Shown here: piece by piece, positions 2,216 to 51,713 of the stretch
How the letters are laid out: every line of letters starts with the position of its first letter
Numbering within the stretch: position 1 is the first letter of the stretch
NCBI GenBank assembly: GCA_029747585.1
Contig: JAPEVF010000141.1
Location: 1-64,000 of the forward strand
Length of the DNA stretch: 64,000 nt
Source of the DNA: Pleurotus djamor
Lineage: Eukaryota > Basidiomycota > Agaricomycetes > Agaricales > Pleurotaceae
Direction: 5' to 3'
The notes under the pieces: generated by a model
What the model was told of the DNA's origin: nothing
Seen by the model: the letters and a program-made list of their open reading frames with translations, nothing else
The model's database searches: none
Program-made: the position numbers and the translations under genes

Positions 2216-3086
2216 TTCCCCTCAGTTTGTATCCGAAAACCCCTTCTTCCCCCCTTTCCCCCAGATCACATGTCACTCGTTTCCATTTCTAGTCTTTCCA
2301 TTCTACTTCCGCACTTCCAACACGCCCACCCTCTTTAGTCCTCTCTCCTCCATCTTCGCGTTTTACATACAGGTTCCACAAACCATCCTCTCGTTACGCT
2401 TTCTCACCCAACTTGCAAATCACTCCAACACTCCTTTCCTGAGAAAACCGTGTCATTCTTGACACGATTCTCACTTTACCTTCTCTTTTTTTTCTGTTCT
2501 ATGTTCGTACCTCCACCCTCTTTCCACTGCTCAAACTGCTACCTTCATACGAACTCCTCTAGTATAAATACCTCATGTTTTCTCTACAAACCACATGAAT
2601 TTACAAGACTCATTTTCCCCATCTTTCCATTGTCCGAGGCCTAAGTTCTTTCTATTTCGCTCTCGTTTTCTAGCATTTTCTTCGCCGTTTCATTCGACTT
2701 CACGACTATTCGCCTTTGCCTTCGCTATCGACTTCGACTTCGACTCTCTGACCGACCGATTAACCGATTTACCGACTTCGACTATCCGATATTGACTTAC
2801 CGCCGTCGACACGAGTTCGACCGCTTTGACTTCACCGCCATCCACTGCTTCTCCACTGTTTCGCAAGGGACGCACCACCACCCACGCACCACCACCCACC
2901 ACCATCACCACCACCACTCTCCGAGATCTAGAGAAGATACAGCCCACTGGTCAGCCGGAGGCGACCAACTCGCATTGCAACANCCCCCCCTTTACATCAC
3001 AGTAAGGAACCCAACGCCAACATCAACTCAAGTTGTAAGTTCCCTTGTTGCGATGAATCCCCCTGACTAACAAACAACCTCCCCAG
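2216..3086. other. Pyrimidine-rich and CAC-rich tract, no gene
   Basis: 2220-2720 is strongly C/T-rich on the + strand, as in fungal promoters. 2870-2925 is a run of CAC/CAT that would encode poly-His. I see no supported gene; an N sits at 2983. Confidence 0.5.
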
Positions 3087-3640
3087 TCGAATCATGGGGC
3101 TTCCGCTTCGCTGCTGAGAGGTGGCTGCTAGGACGTTGACGGCGGAAGCGCCGAGCTACGCGACGATTATGGAGTTGGATAAGAAGGTCCGTGACTTTCC
3201 GTTACCCGCCCTTGGGGGAGCGACATCCACACCATCTTTGACGACGGCGACCGCTGCTGTGGCTGGCTCTGGAGCTCAAGGACAGAAAGGTCAATAACAG
3301 CAACAGCAACCCCGAGGATCCTTTGCGTCTGAGTTCATGCGCTGCGTCTTGGATCATACAAGGGAGACCAGTGCGTGCCCCACTTCTTTTTCTTCGTCGT
3401 TGTGCAGTTCCTTACATACCCTATTGCGCACAGTCCTCCTATACATCCACCGAAGCTTCTTTGCTCAAGCCATCATCGACCAACCCGCCAACCCTCTGAA
3501 GAGCGCATATGCCCCGTCGTTCCTAGCAGCGTATCGAGCGTCGACGACCATCTTGAAATCGGTCAAGGAGCAATTTAGGACGTGGCCCGTGGCGTGTGCA
3601 TGCTTCTGGAGCATGTGGACGTTTGCGTTCTCCACTGCGG
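3087..3640 (+). pseudogene. Fungal-specific transcription factor domain remnant
   Basis: Fragments of a Zn2Cys6-type transcription factor, namely the fungal-specific regulatory domain, are recognisable on the + strand. They include ESWGFRFAAER at 3087, RTLTAEAPSYATIMELDKKV near 3130, FMRCVLDHTRE near 3335, and HRSFFAQAIIDQPANPLKSA followed by YAPSFLAAYRASTTILKSVK from about 3450 to 3560. The last good piece is FWSMWTFAFSTA before a GTAAGT donor at about 3639. An in-frame TAA (3295-3297) and frame changes interrupt it, and no DNA-binding Zn cluster or C-terminal part is visible. It lies just outside the left arm of the inverted duplication. Family assignment rests on resemblance to Agaricomycete regulators I know. 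Confidence 0.55.
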
Positions 3641-4406: not shown

Positions 4407-5671
4407 TAGGCGCCCTCTGCTCAGCCTACTGCTACCTCAACCACGACTCCAACCGCGACTCTAGTCTGCTATATAAACCATGTCGCTCTTGGGCCTTGAT
4501 GTCAACGACCTTCACATCAGATCATAAACATTTTAATGCTCCGTCTGTTCAGGGGAAAACCCACTGACTCGCCACATACCTGCACGACAAGTGAGAGAAT
4601 TCTTTTGCATTCATGCTCTAAGTATCTATCTGTATTCTGCATTGCACCGTCCTATTCAAATCCGGTACCATGAACCGCAAACACTAGTCCCATTTGACGA
4701 TGCTCCATTTATTCCTTCTGGTACGCTTCGTCATCGATTTTTAGGCTGATTGCTCATCATTGCGCAGACGCAGATCGAGCCCTCCAAAACCTATGGCTCG
4801 GTGAGGCCGGCGGATTAGGGTGATCTTCGCAAGTCTATTGTTCCTGCATCCACTTGTTGCGCTCGGCAACCTGTGGTAAGCCCTGCTGGCTATGTGTGAT
4901 GCAATTGCGACGGGAGTAATGTGCAGCCGGCGCAGCACGTAGTTGTATGTGCTGTCCGTGTGCGCACGCCTCGGACTCGACTAAGTACACACAAACTATC
5001 CCCTTTGTCAGTCGAGGTACATTAGTGAGAGCTTGGCCTTCTGTTCTTTCAGTCGCTTGATGCTGATAGGCAATTCAAAGTGAAGATGTCGAAGACTTTG
5101 AAGAGATTGTAGGTCCATTATCTCTGGTCGATGCGGACGATCTGCCCTGTCATGCTGACTCGTCAATGTGCGTTGCCTTGACACTCCTCCCTCGGGTGCC
5201 GTCGTTACAAGTATTTTTGATATCGGGAACGGTCTCTTCTGGGAAGATTGTGTCATGCAACTCAAGTCAACTCCACATAGCCGAACTCTCATCCAGGGCT
5301 ATGGTGGACCATGAAACCGCCATATTCAGTCGCCCCTTTGACCTGAGTGTCTACTCCCGCCCCTCCGTCCACGGCCCCGAACTTGCTTATCCGCTAAGCT
5401 GAGCGCATCATGCCCTCCGCGACTCCCGCCTTTTTACTCCCATTTAGCAATATCTAGTCCAATGAAGGTGCCTTTTGGAGATGACGCCGTCCATCATTCC
5501 CTCGAAAATCCGAGCCTATGAGCTATGCATTGAATCCTGCACAGATTTTTGGTCGTGTATGGACAAGTCTCCTCCTGGCTTTCCGATGGAGGAGCGGGCG
5601 CGGTTGTCATTTCGAATTCATCCTAGACCACTTAGTGCCTGATATTGAAGCGCTCCCTACGGAGAGCAGCC
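4407..5671. promoter_or_regulatory. Upstream region of GMC gene 1
   Basis: I find no gene here. The block at about 5403-5450 (gcgcatcatgccctccgcga and following bases) recurs with few changes upstream of the GMC genes at 20165 and 30378, and is mirrored upstream of the right-arm copy. This suggests inherited shared promoter elements. The uninterrupted site of the right-arm Helitron-like insertion corresponds to about 5215-5220. Confidence 0.45.
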
Positions 5672-8445: not shown

Positions 8446-10104
8446 TTAGCATACCCCAAGAGAGGACACTGAATCAAGTATGACCACATCGATTTCTGTT
8501 GCCTTATGCCTGTTTCCGCAGAATGAACATAGAGAGCGCCAAGACTCAATCTCAACCACTGCCGAAGCTTCGCACATAAATGTGAGCTTCTTGACTGTTA
8601 AGCCCTTCTCTTCCCGTTTGCGCAGAATGCCATCTACGTGCCGGGTATCATAGTGGCTTACGCCCCTATCCGCTACCCAAACGACCTCCTCTAGTTGAGG
8701 GTAATAAGCAGATGAGGCTTGCTCCATTGATGTACAACCAAGCAGAAGGGCTTCACACGCGGACAGCGAATCAATGATGAGCTTCGTAGTATTATTCTGC
8801 GGCTTGGTGAAGGAGTCGTAGTTGAATGAATCCTCCGCTGGTCGATTGAATTGAAGTGTAGCGGCGATAGGGGGCACAGTCGAAGGGAGGGTGTCGGCGA
8901 ATGTAGACGATACCTTGCCACCATGATCCTCTCCAGTGACTGAAAATTTATATGGTGGCGTTGTGCGAAGCTCATTATTTCCACTCTTCAGTCGAACAAT
9001 AGCGTGGGGATTCACGTGGACAGACTGATACCAGGAACGCCCCGGACCAGGCGCCATAGTGAGTTGGTAACACCGATGGTGGCTGGCTGGTGGAGGTATT
9101 AAAGCATAGAATGCTGAGGCCGCGGATGCCAAGATGTCGGGAGTCATTTCCAAGGAAGATGAACAAATTATGATTGACCGCATTTGCGGAGAAGAGATGT
9201 ACTTGAGGAAACCCTCTACGCGCCGAATGGAATCGTCTTGCACTTCGAGGGACTTCAGTGAGGGAATGTATATCTTGCCAGATATCGGTTTTATCGTCCC
9301 GCGGAGGGCCTGGTTGAGAACTAAATTCTCCAAACGATACATCCTCTGGAAAGCACGCAAGAGATCTACCAACGCTGGTTTGTTGGGAATGTCGATGAGC
9401 TTCATCGTAGAGAGTTTTGAGAAGCACGGCGAGGAAATGTTATGAACGCTAATGTTCCGGAGCTCCAAATAACGTAGAGTTGGCGTGAGGGCCGACGTCC
9501 CGTTCGGTGCAGGAGGAAATCTAAGTGTTGACTCCGAGCTGCTAGCAATAGTGAGGCTCTCGAGGATCGGGAAATTGGATTGATTTACTATGTCTATGTA
9601 TTTTTTGGGGANANGAAAATTTTCAATGACGAGTTCGCGAATTCGAGAGGATTGGTGTTGGACGAGTGAATCAATGGTGGTGTCAATGCGCATGAATTGA
9701 TTCTCAATCGCGTTGAGGAGACGAAGGGGGAGCGTGTGTCCACCTCTATCTATGAAGAGTTGGGCTATGTCGTTTTTCATGGAGACGTAGAGCGAGGTCC
9801 AAAATGAAGGGGCGGAAACGAGGAAGTCCCGCCATCGACGACAGACGTGGGTGCAAGGAAAGAACGACTGGTGTAAGCCGGCAAGGTTCGGCGCCTCCGT
9901 GTTCCTACCACGAAGGGGCAGATACTCGAATATCATCAGGAGAATTTCTTGAGGCAAGTGGGCGACAATATCCCCGCTTCGAACTTGAACCTCTCGTTTG
10001 TGCTGTAGGAACGCGATGTCGCCTTGAAGGATTTCAATCTTCTTGTCGATATCGTCGACGCCATGCACGCCTGAGCGGAGCCAAGCCAAGATATCTTCAG
10101 ACAT
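8446..10104 (-). CDS. F-box protein (left arm)
   Basis: This is a single-exon F-box protein, likely a substrate adaptor of an SCF ubiquitin ligase. After a short coiled segment (IDKKIEILQGDIAFLQHKRE) the F-box follows at about residues 45-60 (IVAHLPQEILLMIFEYLPL), then THVCRRWRDFLVSAPSFWTS. The rest is a leucine-rich but irregular substrate-binding region, as in the large Agaricomycete F-box families. The start at 10104 is chosen because MSEDILAW is shared with the right-arm copy. Two N characters at 9612 and 9614 fall in codons 163-165; the frame survives only if both are counted as bases, so that spot is uncertain. The right-arm copy is one codon shorter there. Its target is unknown. Confidence 0.85.
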   Translation of the reverse strand: MSEDILAWLRSGVHGVDDIDKKIEILQGDIAFLQHKREVQVRSGDIVAHLPQEILLMIFEYLPLRGRNTEAPNLAGLHQSFFPCTHVCRRWRDFLVSAPSFWTSLYVSMKNDIAQLFIDRGGHTLPLRLLNAIENQFMRIDTTIDSLVQHQSSRIRELVIENFXXPKKYIDIVNQSNFPILESLTIASSSESTLRFPPAPNGTSALTPTLRYLELRNISVHNISSPCFSKLSTMKLIDIPNKPALVDLLRAFQRMYRLENLVLNQALRGTIKPISGKIYIPSLKSLEVQDDSIRRVEGFLKYISSPQMRSIIICSSSLEMTPDILASAASAFYALIPPPASHHRCYQLTMAPGPGRSWYQSVHVNPHAIVRLKSGNNELRTTPPYKFSVTGEDHGGKVSSTFADTLPSTVPPIAATLQFNRPAEDSFNYDSFTKPQNNTTKLIIDSLSACEALLLGCTSMEQASSAYYPQLEEVVWVADRGVSHYDTRHVDGILRKREEKGLTVKKLTFMCEASAVVEIESWRSLCSFCGNRHKATEIDVVILDSVSSLGVC

Positions 10105-10268
10105 TGTCGGGTGTTCGCCAAGGTAGGGTATTTTGATTCCTGCAACTTGAAAGGAGGCAGTTGGGAAGGGGCGCTGCGTGGCAACCCATTAAGGGGGCAG
10201 AGCCTCAGGGGCATCAGACAAGGACATCAAGCTGTGTTACTCTTCTTAGGCCTTCCCCCAATTGTGCT

Positions 10269-16279: not shown

Positions 16280-16776
16280 TTAGAGCGCGGGCGTGAGTCC
16301 CTACGATGAGGAGCAGAGAGAAGGGAAGAAAGCAGGGTAGATTTGGTTAGGGCACTCCTAGTGGATTTATAGCGAGGAGCTAAGAAGGAGAAGATCGCAG
16401 CTTGTCCTGCAGAGCTTTGCGTAGTTCCATTGTGGCTGTTCCGGAGGGGAGCGACCTCCCGAGTTGCCTTGGCAGGTCGGATAGGAGACAAATTCAGTGC
16501 CCCCTNGTTTGAGCATCCTATCAGAGGAGTCAACGGTAGGTGTGAGTTTGCACCTGTTTGCTAGGCTTGTCGTAGTCCTTTCCGTTATAAAACAACTATA
16601 AAATAAGATTCGACTCGTACATGGACATTGCGACTGAACTCTCTGGGACGCCATACGATGTCCTTGCTTTGAAGGTGCGATACAGGATGTACCATCTGCC
16701 CTATTCTACCTGGAATCACTCATCTCCGTGGTCATTTTGACGGTTAAAAGCAGACTCACTGACTAGCATCCACGTC

Positions 16777-18390
16777 ATGCTTACTGGAACTGTGGGTTCC
16801 CTTCACGGCGACAATATCGACGAGGCGCTGCCAGGCTTTTCACTTGAAAGCAATATGACATCTACCCTTGTTGCCGATCTTCCTGACGAACTTCTCACAA
16901 TGATATTTGAGAACCTTCCTCTTGGCTTAAAGACCACCAATGCCCAGAAAGTCCTCGAGCTAAACGGTCTACGCCAATCCTTCTTCGTTTGTACTCATGT
17001 ATGTCGTCGATGGCGACACATTCTTATCTCCGTCCCTTCCTTTTGGGACACAATCTACGTCTTTATGGAGAAAGAACTGGCCGAACTCTTCTCTGAGCGA
17101 GCGGGACCTACGCTCCCCCTTCGACTCCTTAACGATGAAAGAGCCCATAGATGGAATGGAGCAACGATTGGATACTTCATCCAAAATCACTCCTCGCGGA
17201 TCCGTGAACTGGAGGTTAACCCAGATAGAAGTGCCGAAGCCACAGATCTCATATCCTCTATCACACAGCCCAACTTACCAATGCTCGAGCACCTCACCAT
17301 TGTTCGGACGTTTTCATGGGGCTCTTTCCAATTTTTTCCTGCGACTGAAAGTGGGTTCGAGACATCAGCTATACGTCCTGTACTACGTTACCTTCATCTC
17401 CAAGAGTTCCTACCTCAAAACATACATTCTCCTCTCTTCTCTCAGCTCTCCTTCCTCAAAATCCAATTCGAGCTTGGTAACATATTCAGACTGGGCTTGA
17501 CCTATCTCCTGCACACATTAGGCGGAATGGTTCATCTGCAAGTTCTAGATCTCAAGGAAATTATTTCTCCTGACGTCCCACACACACAAACACCGACCTT
17601 AACTATCCTACCGTCCTTGACTTCCTTGGTCCTGGAAGAGGACCTCCATATATTGGAGGTTTTTCTCCGGCACGTATCCTGTCCTCACGTCATCTCCGCC
17701 CGAATGCACGCACCCCCCTACGGTCAAGCGGATTCGGCTCACCTGACTTCCGCGGTTGCAGGATTCCTCGCCTTGATCCCCACTGAGCCACGCGACTGGC
17801 ACTCACGGCTAGTCCTGGCGCCAAATACGGGCAGCTACTGGACGCAAGCTATCCATATATATCCTCAGCGTGAATATGAACGGGGAGAGGGTGAGATTCT
17901 ACCTGGATCACCACCGTTCAAATTCTCGATTACACAGCAAAACGGCAGTGGCCTATGGCAATCATTCATGCGAGTGTTTCCTGCTGGCGCACCTCGAATC
18001 GCCACCCTCCAATTTAATCGACCGCACGACTTGAAGTCATTCGATTGGGTTTTCCATCCACCTGAAACATATATTAAAACTCTCCTTGTCGACTCGCTCC
18101 CTACATGTGAGGGCCTTCTCCTTGGCGAGGGCCCTTATCGGGAAACATCAGAAGTTTACTATCCTTCAATTGAGCACGTCATTTGGGTCCCCTATAAGGG
18201 TGTGGATGGCGAGGATATGTTAGACGCGGGCAGCATCCTGCGTGAACGGGAATCGAAGGGACTGGCGGTGAAGAAGCTCACCATCGTTTGTACGCCTGAA
18301 GATCATGAGTTGGTGACGGATATGGCATGGTTTCAACAAGAAGTGATGGAAGTCAAATTGGTGGAGTCGGTGCCCTCTCTGACTGTGTAA
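16777..18390 (+). CDS. F-box protein, divergent (spacer)
   Basis: This single-exon protein of 537 aa lies just inside the left arm. The F-box sits at about residues 30-50 (TSTLVADLPDELLTMIFENL), followed by THVCRRWRHILISVPSFWDT. The remainder aligns in layout with the arm F-box proteins: PTLPLRLLND, SSRIRELEV, and near the C terminus YYPSIEHVIWVPYKGVD and GLAVKKLTIVC. It is clearly a diverged paralogue and not part of the recent duplication. It has no N-terminal coiled segment like the arm copies. It is a presumed SCF adaptor with unknown target. Confidence 0.82.
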   Translation: MLTGTVGSLHGDNIDEALPGFSLESNMTSTLVADLPDELLTMIFENLPLGLKTTNAQKVLELNGLRQSFFVCTHVCRRWRHILISVPSFWDTIYVFMEKELAELFSERAGPTLPLRLLNDERAHRWNGATIGYFIQNHSSRIRELEVNPDRSAEATDLISSITQPNLPMLEHLTIVRTFSWGSFQFFPATESGFETSAIRPVLRYLHLQEFLPQNIHSPLFSQLSFLKIQFELGNIFRLGLTYLLHTLGGMVHLQVLDLKEIISPDVPHTQTPTLTILPSLTSLVLEEDLHILEVFLRHVSCPHVISARMHAPPYGQADSAHLTSAVAGFLALIPTEPRDWHSRLVLAPNTGSYWTQAIHIYPQREYERGEGEILPGSPPFKFSITQQNGSGLWQSFMRVFPAGAPRIATLQFNRPHDLKSFDWVFHPPETYIKTLLVDSLPTCEGLLLGEGPYRETSEVYYPSIEHVIWVPYKGVDGEDMLDAGSILRERESKGLAVKKLTIVCTPEDHELVTDMAWFQQEVMEVKLVESVPSLTV

Positions 18391-40177: not shown

Positions 40178-40778
40178 CTGGTACGTGTAGGTCTTTGAGG
40201 GCTGCTACGGAAGCGGATACTTAGTCAGGCCCTCATCTTAGAGAGTTGAGCACGTACAAGTAAATTGGGATCTTCGAGACGAGTCGTTGGTGCAAGTACG
40301 CCGCAAGCGAAGCACCTTTTATATGTCTTCCGTTAGAGCGCTTTTGGACACACCTGCATCATCGACATCATCCAAGAGACGAGGAACAACACCCTTTCTC
40401 TTGGCGACCTGTCACTATTCACCCACATTCAGCGATAGCATCAAGATGACCACATGATACAGTGAATTTCTCTGTAGTATCCCAAGCTTTGGGAACGACT
40501 TGCTTCTTGAGGAGTCTAGGCGTTTCTGATAGAGAAGAATGAGGTGTGTACCAAGGAATTCGAAGCTGCTGCGGACAGGATCAGCTCAACAAAATGAACA
40601 GGCAATCCAGATACAACCCATGCCGAAAGCCTGACCAGTCTCTTTGTCTGCTGGCCCCCTGAAACTCTGCCCCCTTAATGGTTTGCCACGAAGTGACGAA
40701 GTCACGAAACGCCCCTTCCAACCGCCTCCTTTCAAGTTGCAGGCATCAAAAATACCCAACCTTGACGTACACCCGACA

Positions 40779-42434
40779 ATGTCTGAAGATATTTTGGCTT
40801 GGCTTTGCTCAGGCGTGCATGGCGTCGACGATATCGACAAGAAGATTGAAATCCTTCAAGGCGACATCGCGTTCCTACAGCACAAACGAGAGGTTCAAGT
40901 CCGAAGCGGGGATATTGTCGCTCACTTGCCTCAAGAAATTCTCCTTATGATATTCGAGTATCTGCCCCTTCGTGGTAGGAACACGGAGGGGCCGAACCTT
41001 GCCGGCTTACACCAGTCGTTCTTTCCCTGCACCCACGTCTGTCGTCGATGGCGGGACTTCCTCGTTTCCGCCCCTTCATTCTGGACCTCGCTCTACGTAT
41101 CCATGAAAAAGGACATAGCCCAACTCTTCATAGATAGAGGTGGACACACACTCCCCCTTCGTCTCCTCAACGCGATTGAGAAACAATTCATACGTATTGA
41201 CACCACCATTGATTCACTCGTCCAACACCAATCCTCTCGAATCCGCGAACTCGTCATTGAAAAATTTCTCCCCAAAAAATACATAGACATAGTAAATCAA
41301 TCCAATTTCCCGATCCTCGAGAGCCTCACTATTGCGAGCAGCTCGGAGTCAACACTTAGATTTCCTCCTGCACCGAACGGGACGTCGGCCCTCACGCCAA
41401 CTCTACGTTATCTGGAGCTCCGGAACATTAGCGTTCATAACATTTCCTCGCCGTGCTTCTCAAAACTCTCTACGATGAAGCTCATCGACATTCCCAACAA
41501 ACCAGCGTTGGTAGATCTCTTGCGTGCTTTCCAGAGGATGTATCGTTTGGAGAATTTAGTTCTCAACCAGGCCCTCCGCGGGACGATAAAACCGATATCT
41601 GGCAAGATATACATTCCCTCACTGAAGTCCCTCGAAGTGCAAGACGATTCCATTCGGCGCGTAGAGGGTTTCCTCAAGTACATCTCTTCTCCGCAAATGC
41701 GGTCAATCATAATTTGTTCATCTTCCTTGGAAATGACTCCCGACATCTTGGCATCCGCGGCCTCAGCATTCTATGCTTTAATCCCTCCACCAGCCAGCCA
41801 CCATCGGTGTTACCAACTCACTATGGCGCCTGGTCCGGGGCGTTCCTGGTATCAGTCTGTCCATGTGAATCCCCACGCTATTGTTCGACTGAAGAGTGGA
41901 AATAATGAGCCTCGCACAACGCCACCATATAAATTTTCAGTCACTGGAGAGGATCATGGGGGCAAGGTATCGTCTACATTCGCCGACACCCTCCCTTCGA
42001 CTGTGCCCCCTATCGCCGTTACACTTCAATTCAATCGACCAGCGGAGGCTTCATTCAACTACGACTCCTTCACCAAGCCGCAGAATAATATTACGAAGCT
42101 CATCATTGATTCGCTGTCCGCGTGTGAAGCCCTTCTGCTTGGTTGTACATCAACGGAGCAAGCCTCATCCGCTTATTACCCTCAACTAGAGGAGGTCGTT
42201 TGGGTAGCGGATAGGGGCGTAAGCCACTATGATACCCGGCACGTAGATGGCATTCTGCGCAAACGGGAAGAGAAGGGCTTAACAGTCAAGAAGCTCACAT
42301 TTATGTGCGAAGCTTCGGCAGTGGTTGAGATTGAGTCTTGGCGCTCTCTATGTTCATTCTGCGGAAACAGGCATAAGGCAACAGAAGTTGATGTGGTCAT
42401 ACTTGAATCAGTGTCCTCTCTTGGGATATGCTAA
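40779..42434 (+). CDS. F-box protein (right arm)
   Basis: This is the mirror of 8446-10104, with a clean, N-free frame of 551 aa. I start at 40779 (MSEDILAWLCSGVHG), although the frame opens upstream at 40644, because the extra 45 residues are not open in the left arm. About 14 residue differences from the left copy are spread evenly (for example N/K in SMKKDIAQL, E/G in RNTEGPNL). It converges on the GMC gene to its right, as in the left arm. Confidence 0.87.
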   Translation: MSEDILAWLCSGVHGVDDIDKKIEILQGDIAFLQHKREVQVRSGDIVAHLPQEILLMIFEYLPLRGRNTEGPNLAGLHQSFFPCTHVCRRWRDFLVSAPSFWTSLYVSMKKDIAQLFIDRGGHTLPLRLLNAIEKQFIRIDTTIDSLVQHQSSRIRELVIEKFLPKKYIDIVNQSNFPILESLTIASSSESTLRFPPAPNGTSALTPTLRYLELRNISVHNISSPCFSKLSTMKLIDIPNKPALVDLLRAFQRMYRLENLVLNQALRGTIKPISGKIYIPSLKSLEVQDDSIRRVEGFLKYISSPQMRSIIICSSSLEMTPDILASAASAFYALIPPPASHHRCYQLTMAPGPGRSWYQSVHVNPHAIVRLKSGNNEPRTTPPYKFSVTGEDHGGKVSSTFADTLPSTVPPIAVTLQFNRPAEASFNYDSFTKPQNNITKLIIDSLSACEALLLGCTSTEQASSAYYPQLEEVVWVADRGVSHYDTRHVDGILRKREEKGLTVKKLTFMCEASAVVEIESWRSLCSFCGNRHKATEVDVVILESVSSLGIC

Positions 42435-48482: not shown

Positions 48483-49346
48483 ATGATAACCCCCCACAGA
48501 CAACGTGCAAAGGCGCTTCGTTACACTTGGCTTGTCCTCCGCGTACTCTGTATGGTCAACATCTTGTTGGTCATTCTACTCGCCGTTCATGTCCTGGAAA
48601 AGCCTGGCGATGCTGTTTATTGTACGTCGACACTTTCGCTTCGGTTAGTATAACCATCGTACTCATATAAAGTCGGCTTCCCAGCTCCCGCACAAGACGT
48701 CGTTGAATACGAAATCAAGCGATTCAACACCGGTTTCCTTGATGAACCAAAGTCTGTCTTCCAAGGCCCGCCTACCGACGCCATGGATGCCGCTTGGCAA
48801 GATCTTTACAAAGGTATCATCATAGTGCTCATTCACCCACCATGTTAAATCGAACCTCTGTCTAGACGGCGTCTCGTATCTCCTCCCAGAGGAAGCTCGC
48901 CTCTTGAGAGATCCAACAGTCCCAGCGCCAGGTGCTCAAGTTTACGTCGGAGGGCTCGACGTCTTCCATCAAATCCACTGCTTGGTGCGCTCCCTCCGCA
49001 ACGCCCTTTCCAATTCCAACGTATACAAACCATTATTCCACAGGACATGATTCGAATGGCGGCTTATCCTGACAGGTATAACGCCTCACAGCGACATCAA
49101 ATGCACCTCCGTCGCAGCGGAAGTATGGGCCACCCCAAGATATCGGACCAGGAACACCTCCAGCACTGCATCAACAGCGTTCGTCAGTCACTCATGTGCT
49201 CTTCCGATATCAGCATAAACCCATATTACAACCCGAAATTGGAGAAGCGACCCTTCCCCCGATTCGACCAGTTACACACATGCCGTAACTTTGAGAAGAT
49301 CAAGGACTGGGCCTTTAAGCGGACGACGAATGTTTGGCATGAGTAA
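48483..49346 (+). CDS. UstYa-family oxidase (DUF3328), first copy
   Basis: UstYa-like proteins oxidise and cyclise RiPP precursor peptides in fungi (ustiloxin, asperipin and cyclochlorotine pathways). Four exons (48483-48621, 48673-48813, 48866-48984, 49044-49346) give 233 aa. There is a single membrane helix at about residues 18-37 (VLCMVNILLVILLAVHVL). The catalytic domain has RFNTGFLDEPKSVFQGPPTD, LRDPTVPAPGAQVYVGGLDV, and the paired motif HxxHC ... HxxHC: HQIHC at the end of exon 3 and HLQHC in exon 4, followed by SLMCSSDI. The tail has DQLHTCRNFEKIKDW. Both motifs are complete, so activity is likely. The 127-bp gap to the next UstYa gene and the nearby repeat precursor point to one biosynthetic locus. 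Confidence 0.9.
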
Positions 49347-49472
49347 TTGTAACTTCTTACAACCCCACTCGGCTGTGTAGATAAGACACCAAACAAATCA
49401 CCGATCCTTTCTATCCGCGCCTGAGATATATCATCCACGGACAATCATTGACAACGTAGGCCTCCCACCAAG

Positions 49473-50552
49473 ATGAACAACCCCTTCAAGATTGATCCCC
49501 CTTCTTCTGTGGAAATCGAGCTCGAACGCGAACCTTTCCTAGGCTCCAGTGGAAAGGATGAACTCGACGTCGTTGATATCGATGGTCATTCAAATGGACG
49601 CCGCCTACTCTTACACCTGGCCGGGATAGTCTTACTGTCTTTCTCATCTATCAGTATCCTCCATGTCCTCCTCCGTGCAAACGTTTCAGTGACTCCAGAA
49701 AAAATATTTCCAACCCTACTGTACAGTGAGTATTCGAATCCCCGCGTTGCTGTCTATTGTCTCAACACACCTGCTCCTTCCCAAGGCCCCGTTGAACATC
49801 TTATTGAATATCAACATATCCGCTTCCACACCGGATTTTTCGATGACGAATTACCCTCCGTTTTCGACGGCCCGTCCACCGACGCAATGGATAAAGCCTG
49901 GTTAGACCTCTACGATATCTGGACCTGTAAGGTTCATTATTCCATCCGTTCTCATCAAGCTCAGGCTTTCCCTCTCTGTGCAGATGCCGTTTCTTCGCTG
50001 ACCGAAGATGAGAATGATCGTCTGCCCGATCCCACCGTTCCGGCCTTTGGAAACCATTCCCAGTTGTTTGGGGGCATCGACGTCTTCCACCAACTGCACT
50101 GTTTGGTTTGTCCAATCCCCCCATCGTGTCTTGTTGATATTGCTGAAACCTATTCATATTTTATTTGCACCAGGATTATGTTCGCCAAGCAATTGAACCC
50201 GACCGCTACAGTCGTGGCCACCATCATGGCAGGAAGCGGGCCATCTCACCTCCTCTCGTACCAAGGCGAGCAACGACGGATTTGCCACATGTATCTGACG
50301 CAGAACATGTTGCCCACTGCATCGACATGATTCGGCAGTCTCTCATGTGCTCGGCTGATATCAGNTGTTGTTTCGTGGTACTTTGCAGACGCCTCTGTAA
50401 TGAAGGGGCCCAGGGGGAATAGGAAGGGGAAACTGTTTCCAAGATTTGATCAGACACGTCTCTGCAGGAATTTCGATAAAATTAAGGGATGGGCAGGGGA
50501 GAGGACACCAAATGCGAGAGACCTGGAAGCAGTCCTCCCTCGTCCACATTAG
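49473..50552 (+). CDS. UstYa-family oxidase (DUF3328), second copy
   Basis: Four exons (49473-49725, 49786-49926, 49984-50105, 50174-50552) give about 297 aa once the N at 50365 is treated as spurious. Counting it as a base shifts the frame to an early stop. Skipping it restores SADISVVSWYFADASVMKGP, then FPRFDQTRLCRNFDKIKGWA, matching the first copy, with TAG at 50550-50552. The protein has a longer cytosolic N terminus, a membrane helix (HLAGIVLLSFSSISILHVLL), HTGFFDDELPSVFDGPSTDA, then HQLHC and HVAHC. The donor after ACC T at 49927 is the only nearby GT and adds four residues (DIWT) relative to copy one. The two enzymes differ enough to act at different steps. Confidence 0.85.
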
Positions 50553-51264
50553 CTTACGTAGATTAATCGTGTTCAAACAATGAAAATTTCCTTCCGTTCC
50601 TCCGAATCTTCCCATAATTAAGGAACATAGATGATAATCAAGACGACCACAAGACGGCCATGGAGAATTAATCAACGCATAAGCGGCCAGGCTACCAAGA
50701 GCTGGCGTTGGCACCAAGGTATGCTAGAAGTCGGGAAGATCCTCTTCCAAATCGAGACTAGCTCTCACTCTGGTCTCGAAGATTGAGGGGAGTAACAAGA
50801 TCTACGGCCCACCAAGATGGCGCCACTGAGAAGTATAACAGCGGAGGCTTCTCTCGCCGGTGCCAAATATCGTCAAATATACGGCAGCGCTGCCTTGTAA
50901 CAGAGGGCGCGGATGCGTCCTCGGGTGATTTATCGTCTTATAAGTGCCGTTGGAACTTGTTGCAAGCTAAGGCTAGAGTGATTGACGGGAAACCACGATT
51001 GCACCATCAGCGGAAACTTCTCTCACCGGAGACAAAGAGCAACAAATATGCGATAACGCTTATTGAGCAGTGTTGGAAGGAGCACACGACGTGTGGTACT
51101 TTCTGACGGCGTGGGTGCGACGACAAACAACGCGTCCAAATATAAACAAAGTTTACTTCTTAGAACAGGTTCCCTATAAAAGGGTTCTTTCAGCAACTCA
51201 TGAGTTCACCAAGTCGAAAACAAACGGCCTACCCAACAGCAAATACCAATCCAGTCATCGCATC
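50553..51264. promoter_or_regulatory. Intergenic; promoter of the peptide precursor
   Basis: No gene is seen. TATAAA at 51175-51180 (ccctataaaaggg) is 90 bp upstream of the precursor ATG. Confidence 0.5.
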
Positions 51265-51713
51265 ATGCTTCGCAACGTCCTTTTCGTCCTCGCCGTCTTT
51301 ACGGCGTCCATGACGTCGACCAGCGCACTACCAGTCGAGCAAGGTCAGTCACCAAGCATCGAGTCGATGTGAATGATACTGACGAGGTTCTCCTTCATTT
51401 TGCCGTCGTAGAAGCTCCTGCCAAGCGCTTTTTCTACAAATATGCGGACGAAATCGCTGAGCGTTCAGCAGCCCCGGAGAAACGTTTGGTCTATATCTAC
51501 GACGGCGAAGTTGCCGAGCGCTCTGAAGTTGAGGGATTGACGAAGCGATTGGTCTACATCTACGACGGCGAAGTCGCCGAACGCTCGGTTGAAGGCTTGG
51601 AAAAGCGGCTTGTCTACATTTATGACGGCGAAGTTGCCGAGCGATCGGAAGTAGAGGGTCTGGAGAAGCGCTTGGTCTACATCTATCCTGATGAGAACGA
51701 AGCACTGGCTTAA
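51265..51713 (+). CDS. Secreted RiPP precursor with five Kex2-delimited repeats
   Basis: Two exons (51265-51343, 51412-51713) encode 126 aa. Residues 1-21 (MLRNVLFVLAVFTASMTSTSA) are a signal peptide. Five Lys-Arg sites (31-32, 50-51, 71-72, 91-92, 112-113) precede five related segments: FFYKYADE (33), LVYIYDGE (52, 73, 93) and LVYIYPDE (114). Each of the first four is followed by an acidic spacer such as VAERSEVEGLE. This layout of signal peptide, Kex2 sites and near-identical Tyr-containing cores is that of dikaritin precursors (UstA, PhomA, AprA). The invariant Tyr-X-Tyr with a preceding hydrophobic residue is a plausible substrate for Tyr cross-linking by the two UstYa proteins upstream. 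Core ends are not certain. The product is novel to me. Confidence 0.85.

Follow-up and report, generated by a model that had tools for sequence, protein, structure and literature searches.

A locus at positions 48483-51713 of the DNA analysed here raises the question of whether a mushroom carries a cassette for dikaritin-type ribosomally synthesized and post-translationally modified peptides (RiPPs) and, if so, to which branch it belongs. The DNA, referred to as the window, is the 64,000-nucleotide stretch at positions 1-64,000 (forward strand) of contig JAPEVF010000141.1 of Pleurotus djamor, GCA_029747585.1; it is part of a 92.1-kb contig, C453, in an assembly of 55.9 Mb and 1413 contigs. The locus comprises two UstYa-family oxidase genes, A1 and B1, followed by a gene for a repeat precursor, P1, all on the plus strand. 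For reference, asperipin-2a of Aspergillus flavus is described in PMC6514808 as having the core FYYTGY, made bicyclic by ethers between Tyr side chains and beta-carbons. As judged from sequence, we place at about 80% the probability that the locus is an asperipin-branch cassette for dikaritin-type RiPPs. P1 is best read as a putative divergent, five-residue (Tyr-x-Tyr) member of the asperipin-type family, because its relatives in this genome, P2-P5, mostly have asperipin-2a-like cores, and one of them, P4, has FYYTGY exactly.

Paired HxxHC motifs are the mark of UstYa (DUF3328) oxidases, and all four expected motifs are encoded by the window DNA itself: HQIHC and HLQHC in A1, HQLHC and HVAHC in B1. 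Against the Pfam UstYa model (cut-off 25 bits), A1 scores 175.9 bits and B1 139.1 bits, the latter value being taken from the intact copy on contig C340 because an N at 50365 interrupts the B1 frame in the window. The C340 copy is open and encodes 297 residues; the N may be an assembly ambiguity. An initial sequence-only reading of the window, made without database searches, had described two adjacent UstYa genes with paired motifs, in the same orientation and upstream of a repeat precursor, and these results bear it out. A UstYa gene with paired HxxHC motifs in the cluster is one of the features by which an asperipin-type dikaritin is recognized, and both A1 and B1 supply it. The N-terminal segment of A1 is hydrophobic, and both proteins are probably membrane-anchored.

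P1 has no Pfam match. Its N terminus is hydrophobic, with a signal peptide judged by inspection, and a like exon is found in all five precursors, P1-P5; secretion via this signal peptide is probable. After the hydrophobic start, the protein runs EAPAKR-FFYKY-ADEIAERSAAPEKR, continues with three copies of LVYIYDGEVAERS, each with Lys-Arg ahead, and ends KR-LVYIY-PDENEALA, such that DGEVAERS follows three of the four LVYIY copies and PDENEALA the last. Several cores set off by Kex2 Lys-Arg sites are a dikaritin feature, and P1 has five. The earlier description of five near-identical segments thus holds for the Lys-Arg boundaries; near-identity itself is confined to the four LVYIY cores, the first core being FFYKY. 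With its internal repeats, the Kex2 sites between them and the signal peptide seen by inspection, P1 is also a Kex2-processed repeat protein (KEP) as defined in PMC6339444.

Table 1. Features of the window locus and of the related precursor genes found elsewhere in the assembly.
Feature	Location	Strand	Details
UstYa-family oxidase gene A1	48483-49346	+	exons 48483-48621, 48685-48813, 48866-48984, 49044-49346; 229 aa
UstYa-family oxidase gene B1	49473-50552	+	exons 49473-49725, 49786-49926, 49984-50105, 50174-50552
TATA-like site	51175-51181	+	90 nt upstream of the P1 ATG
Precursor P1	51265-51713	+	exon 1 51265-51343, 68-nt intron 51344-51411, exon 2 51412-51713; 126 aa
Core 1, FFYKY	51429-51443	+	Lys-Arg ahead
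Core 2, LVYIY	51486-51500	+	Lys-Arg ahead
Core 3, LVYIY	51549-51563	+	Lys-Arg ahead
Core 4, LVYIY	51609-51623	+	Lys-Arg ahead
Core 5, LVYIY	51672-51686	+	Lys-Arg ahead; followed by PDENEALA and stop
Precursor P2	C685		nine cores FFYT[HD]Y
Precursor P3	C1249		seven cores FYYT[NH]Y
Precursor P4	C634		FYYTGY, YLYSKY, FYYTHY, FYYHDY, FYYTRY and one irregular segment with NTYIQY
Precursor P5	C548		FYYNDY; repeats worn

The repeat exceeds chance, and its copies vary only silently. In the window, up to four identical five-residue strings follow Lys-Arg in one open frame, versus one in the five top-ranking runs among 50 simulations; these were first-order Markov sequences, which preserve neighbour-base frequencies and not codon structure, and on this comparison a chance origin of the repeat was ruled out. 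Among the three copies of the 13-codon repeat unit, 9 sites vary, all of them synonymously (23.6% expected for random changes), and the four copies of KRLVYIY differ at 7 sites, again all synonymous (21.8% expected); the two counts overlap. All five precursor genes have a TATA-like site 47-90 nt ahead of the start codon. Among the UstYa genes A1 and B1 and their C685 counterparts A2 and B2, TATAT is present only in B1; as a background rate, 10.9% of the window's 150-bp stretches contain TATAWR.

All three genes are also present on contig C340, which is about 95% identical in DNA to C453 there and which we read as the other haplotype. Between the two copies, A1 shows a nonsynonymous divergence (dN) of 0.025 and a synonymous divergence (dS) of 0.138, or a dN/dS of about 0.18; B1, compared over the stretch before the N only, shows 0.021 and 0.171, or about 0.12. 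These B1 values replace a dN of 0.152 and a dS of 0.346 obtained by running through the interrupted frame. By this measure of sequence divergence, A1 and B1 are under purifying selection. The P1 protein is identical on both contigs. Furthermore, a 494-bp tract (51211-51704), the P1 intron included, is without a single difference between C453 and C340, in a region where the two contigs otherwise diverge by about 3-6%. Either gene conversion or a recent sweep could account for it.

Searching the assembly with P1, P2, P3 and P4 gathered five distinct precursor loci, P1 in its two copies and P2-P5 as tabulated. All five genes share a common build, with an exon 1 of 76-82 nt ending in phase 1 (encoding LPVEQ, LPVDQ, LPVEQ, LPATQ or LPVAVDR at its end) and an intron of 58-68 nt, and P2 as query retrieves P1 at E 2.3e-9. 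P4 encodes KR-FYYTGY-QLQEKR, which contains the asperipin-2a core once and exactly. One or two residue changes separate FYYTGY from the cores of P2, P3 and P5 and from a further three in P4, and four changes separate it from the YLYSKY of P4; FYYTGY does not occur in P1, whose cores are LVYIY and FFYKY. The tyrosines are separated by one residue in P1 (Y-x-Y) versus two in P2-P5 (Y-x-x-Y). It should be noted that the pattern by which 28 cores were listed demands Tyr at the third and last places, which makes the constancy of the cores partly a matter of construction; it passes over P4's irregular segment and the worn repeats in P5. The precursor genes suggest a small, fast-changing family. We know of no product that matches LVYIY, in agreement with the sequence-only reading, yet the class of chemistry is not an unknown one, given the P4 core. 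The interpretation given there is partly supported: the assignment to the dikaritin type gains support from the anatomy of the locus, its C340 copy and a paralogous trio on C685, but the reading had missed the family of five precursors, most of them with asperipin-2a-like cores.

The paralogous trio consists of A2 (reverse), B2 and P2, which lie side by side on C685 with gene A inverted relative to the window. A1 and A2 are 72.6% identical, B1 and B2 64.2%, and A and B proteins 43-46%. (The first intron of B2, at 5343-5642 of stretch L010, was modelled with a GC donor, GCAAGT.) No further copies of the A-B-precursor trio were found in the assembly beyond those of the window, C340 and C685. In all, UstYa matches fall on 18 contigs, which reduce to 12 distinct loci after joining six pairs of like contigs as haplotypes. 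One of these loci, on C926/C612, is a third A-B pair in which A3 reads HQLRC and QLRHC on both contigs and B3 keeps both motifs. A tree built from 16 selected rows places the five A rows opposite the three B rows across a branch with support 94/93. It does not separate the A rows from the rows of C1006/C775 and C47, and only two of its 12 inner branches are strongly supported, so that it gives no firm history of the three A-B pairs. The tree omitted the weaker or split matches, namely C815, C902, C900, C158, C511, C1088, one of C751, B3 of C612 and B1 of C453.

The remaining precursors differ in their linkage. The full-length allele of P3 is on a 19-kb contig (C1249) without a UstYa match, and a truncated allele lies on C685 at about 15.7 kb, some 22 kb from A2/B2; this allele (minus strand, L049, C685:14800-16300) ends after its first core, versus seven cores in the C1249 allele, a length polymorphism of the precursor. 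The 50-kb contig of P4, C634, also has no UstYa match and ends before the place that corresponds to the C685 trio. Three pieces of C634:45801-49991 match C685:42990-45004, and an extra stretch of about 2.2 kb in C634 holds P4; because identity is only 76-84%, the two may be paralogous rather than haplotypes of each other. From 47.2 kb onward, C685 has a counterpart in C1218 at 91-96% identity. P5, whose repeats are degenerate, is on a 68-kb contig (C548) without a UstYa match and is the only precursor for which linkage is clearly absent. A repeat protein occurring without UstYa genes, which the sequence-only reading had regarded as telling against itself, is therefore partly seen within this genome, in the contigs of the full P3 allele, P4 and P5, with P5 as the sole clear case.

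Taken together, a cassette of the asperipin branch is indicated by two UstYa genes with both motifs beside P1, by the recurrence of the trio on C685 and the relatedness of P1 and P2, by the common build of P1-P5 with FYYTGY in P4, by the silent-only variation of the repeats and the low dN/dS, and by the altered motifs of A3 where a precursor is absent. Several observations weigh against it. A precursor of the P1-P5 type adjoins only two of the 12 UstYa loci, and UstYa genes adjoin only two of the five precursor loci; genome searches with P1-P4 found no such precursor on either contig of the C926/C612 pair, and all of this counts against a strict cluster rule; and the adjacency at the two trio loci may trace to one ancestral adjacency. 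P1 is an outlier in sequence among P1-P5, at least as these searches rank it: as query it finds only itself, its C340 copy and P2 (best E 4.1e-4), it is not listed with P3 as query, and P4 reaches it at E 0.3. Six-residue cores are free to change at position five (G, H, N, D, R and K all occur there), because of which the exact FYYTGY of P4 is one variant among several. Finally, a Pfam scan of 18 fragments of the window and nine of C685, with gaps left by short exons and introns, revealed no transporter, aprR-type isoflavone reductase, S41 peptidase or tyrosinase.

Of the alternatives, the one to be taken most seriously, though still unlikely, is that one or a few UstYa pairs act in trans on all the precursors, such that A1 and B1 need not be the enzymes of P1 and their adjacency is not functional coupling. 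The absence of UstYa matches from the contigs of P4, P5 and the full-length P3 allele fits this, as does the separate change in copy number of precursors and enzymes. Nevertheless, the sole clearly unlinked precursor, P5, is degenerate, a distance of about 22 kb separates P3 from the C685 pair, and the P4 contig stops before the place matching the flank of the C685 trio. It is less probable again that P1-P5 are ordinary KEPs yielding linear signalling or wall-coating peptides, as Rep1 does in Ustilago maydis, with the adjacent UstYa genes serving something else. KEPs are reported from nearly all of the 250 fungi surveyed in PMC6339444, where Rep1 is a basidiomycete case, and three of the five precursor loci have no adjoining UstYa gene. 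Retention of the trio at two diverged loci, with one gene inverted, tells against this, and the cores are short and Tyr-rich, one of them being that of asperipin-2a. In addition, no Lys-Arg of P1 is followed by the STE13 signature of pheromones, which PMC6339444 gives as XA or XP behind the Kex2 site, and a sexual pheromone was rejected on the same ground.

We regard it as very improbable that the locus represents a relic in decay, the product of a cassette duplication whose function is being lost. The interrupted B1 frame of the window, the P3 allele of C685 cut after one core and the lost motifs of A3 are what such decay might leave; against this, B1 is open on C340, dN/dS is 0.12-0.18, repeat variation is silent-only, and P1 is the same protein on C453 and C340.

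If the window does hold an asperipin-type cassette, P1 would enter the secretory pathway via its signal peptide, and Kex2, to judge from the sites, would cleave after Lys-Arg to give peptides starting with LVYIY or FFYKY. By analogy with asperipin-2a, A1 and B1 would then couple the core tyrosines oxidatively through their side chains, probably to the beta-carbons of adjacent residues, to form cyclic or bicyclic peptides, and the acidic tail would presumably be trimmed by unlinked proteases. Given Y-x-Y in P1 versus Y-x-x-Y in its relatives, the P1 ring would be smaller or differently joined, and no plain copy of asperipin-2a.

A wider proposal is put forward only tentatively, as we hold it somewhat less likely than its opposite. 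In this basidiomycete, asperipin-type precursors and paired UstYa enzymes would form a birth-and-death family that shares FYYTGY with A. flavus; the pathway would be as old as the Dikarya or have crossed between phyla; the window cassette would lead to an undescribed Y-x-Y ring type; and some precursors would be served in trans by unlinked UstYa pairs. If true, the known range of UstYa-made peptides extends to mushrooms, and an asperipin core shared unchanged by a basidiomycete family poses the question of ancient or transferred origin. The core series FYYTGY, FYYTNY, FFYTHY, YLYSKY and LVYIY, in which two cores come with a dedicated oxidase pair, offers material for asking what sets ring size and site in UstYa chemistry. 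The precursor-less UstYa pair with altered A3 motifs and the UstYa-less, worn P5, one case each, suggest interdependence of enzyme and substrate.

Other genes lie around these loci. The Pfam scan of the 18 window fragments returned F-box proteins, GMC oxidoreductase C-domains, a dihydrouridine synthase and an alcohol dehydrogenase N-domain, and that of the nine C685 fragments BTB and fungal protein kinase matches. Three long F-box-like proteins are encoded at 8446-10188, 16741-18390 and 40635-42434 of the window, along with at least four GMC oxidoreductase C-domains (32383, 42721, 59713, 63353). Across the assembly, DUF6533, an agaricomycete family, has 89 matches, compared with none in 14 control genomes. 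A scan for repeat precursors covered the window and 18 stretches of 17 contigs at UstYa loci (L009-L026), stretches L035, L038 and L039 being compared as DNA only. Beyond P1 and P2, it listed a C815 protein, a short C1088 fragment with two like segments and a lone KRFLYGF on C1006; the latter two were set aside as looking like chance. The C815 protein (L024, C815:22500-32499, minus strand, about 3751-1480) is secreted-looking, rich in Gly, Tyr and Trp, and has many Lys-Arg sites and units such as QYGYGRGWGRGRWGGGYYKR; with a divergent UstYa gene at a distance of about 2 kb, it is a possible second, unrelated type of precursor. Beside the precursor-less UstYa pair (L015 at about 2758-3130, and L016 plus strand from 7263) are small cysteine-rich, secreted-looking proteins, CIPKGKSCQPSYIKGAIPCCQGRTCVPVIFGVGGWC and a relative, whose cysteine spacing recalls cystine knots. 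Outside this genome, none of 177635 Protein Data Bank sequences is a UstYa relative, the precursors have two matches there (best E 0.24), neither convincing, and none of 109 pattern matches in IMG/VR was confirmed as a relative.

How, then, does the locus compare with systems already described? The name dikaritin is taken from Dikarya (PMC6514808), and the class is placed under Ascomycetes in the accounts of PMC6514808 (2019) and PMC9233826 (2022); basidiomycete members may be in print elsewhere. Asperipins may become a family of their own (PMC9233826). Basidiomycete KEPs such as Rep1 and the XSDW group, the latter named for a conserved basidiomycete motif, share with P1-P5 the signal peptide, repeats and Kex2 sites (PMC6339444), whereas P1-P5 have Tyr-rich cores and are UstYa-linked at two loci; the strings FYY, YYT, FFY and VYIY do not occur in the main text of that 250-fungi survey. 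The epichloecyclins, from gigA, likewise have a signal sequence, four repeats, Kex2 sites and Tyr-based rings (PMC6514808), but the rings contain seven or nine residues, and they are treated as a class apart (PMC6514808, PMC9233826). Ustiloxin B and phomopsin, compounds that PMC6339444 places in Ascomycota, resemble the window locus in their UstYa/UstYb-like pair, Kex2-repeat precursor and core Tyr (PMC6339444, PMC6514808, PMC9233826). They are marked by an EDYXI-type core (PMC6339444), which P1-P5 lack, and the ustiloxin/phomopsin subgroup was rejected for that reason; nor did the scanned fragments yield a recognisable tyrosinase, methyltransferase or S41 peptidase. The asperipin-2a pathway is described as a putative four-gene cluster of aprA, aprY (a UstYa/UstYb homolog, which is needed), aprT (a transporter) and aprR (an isoflavone reductase) (PMC6514808). 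The window locus departs from it in having two UstYa genes instead of one, five-residue Y-x-Y cores in P1, a basidiomycete host, and the lack, among the scanned fragments, of any recognisable homolog of aprT or aprR. In common with it, however, are a Tyr-rich precursor with short cores, a UstYa gene in the cluster and, in the paralog P4, an identical core.

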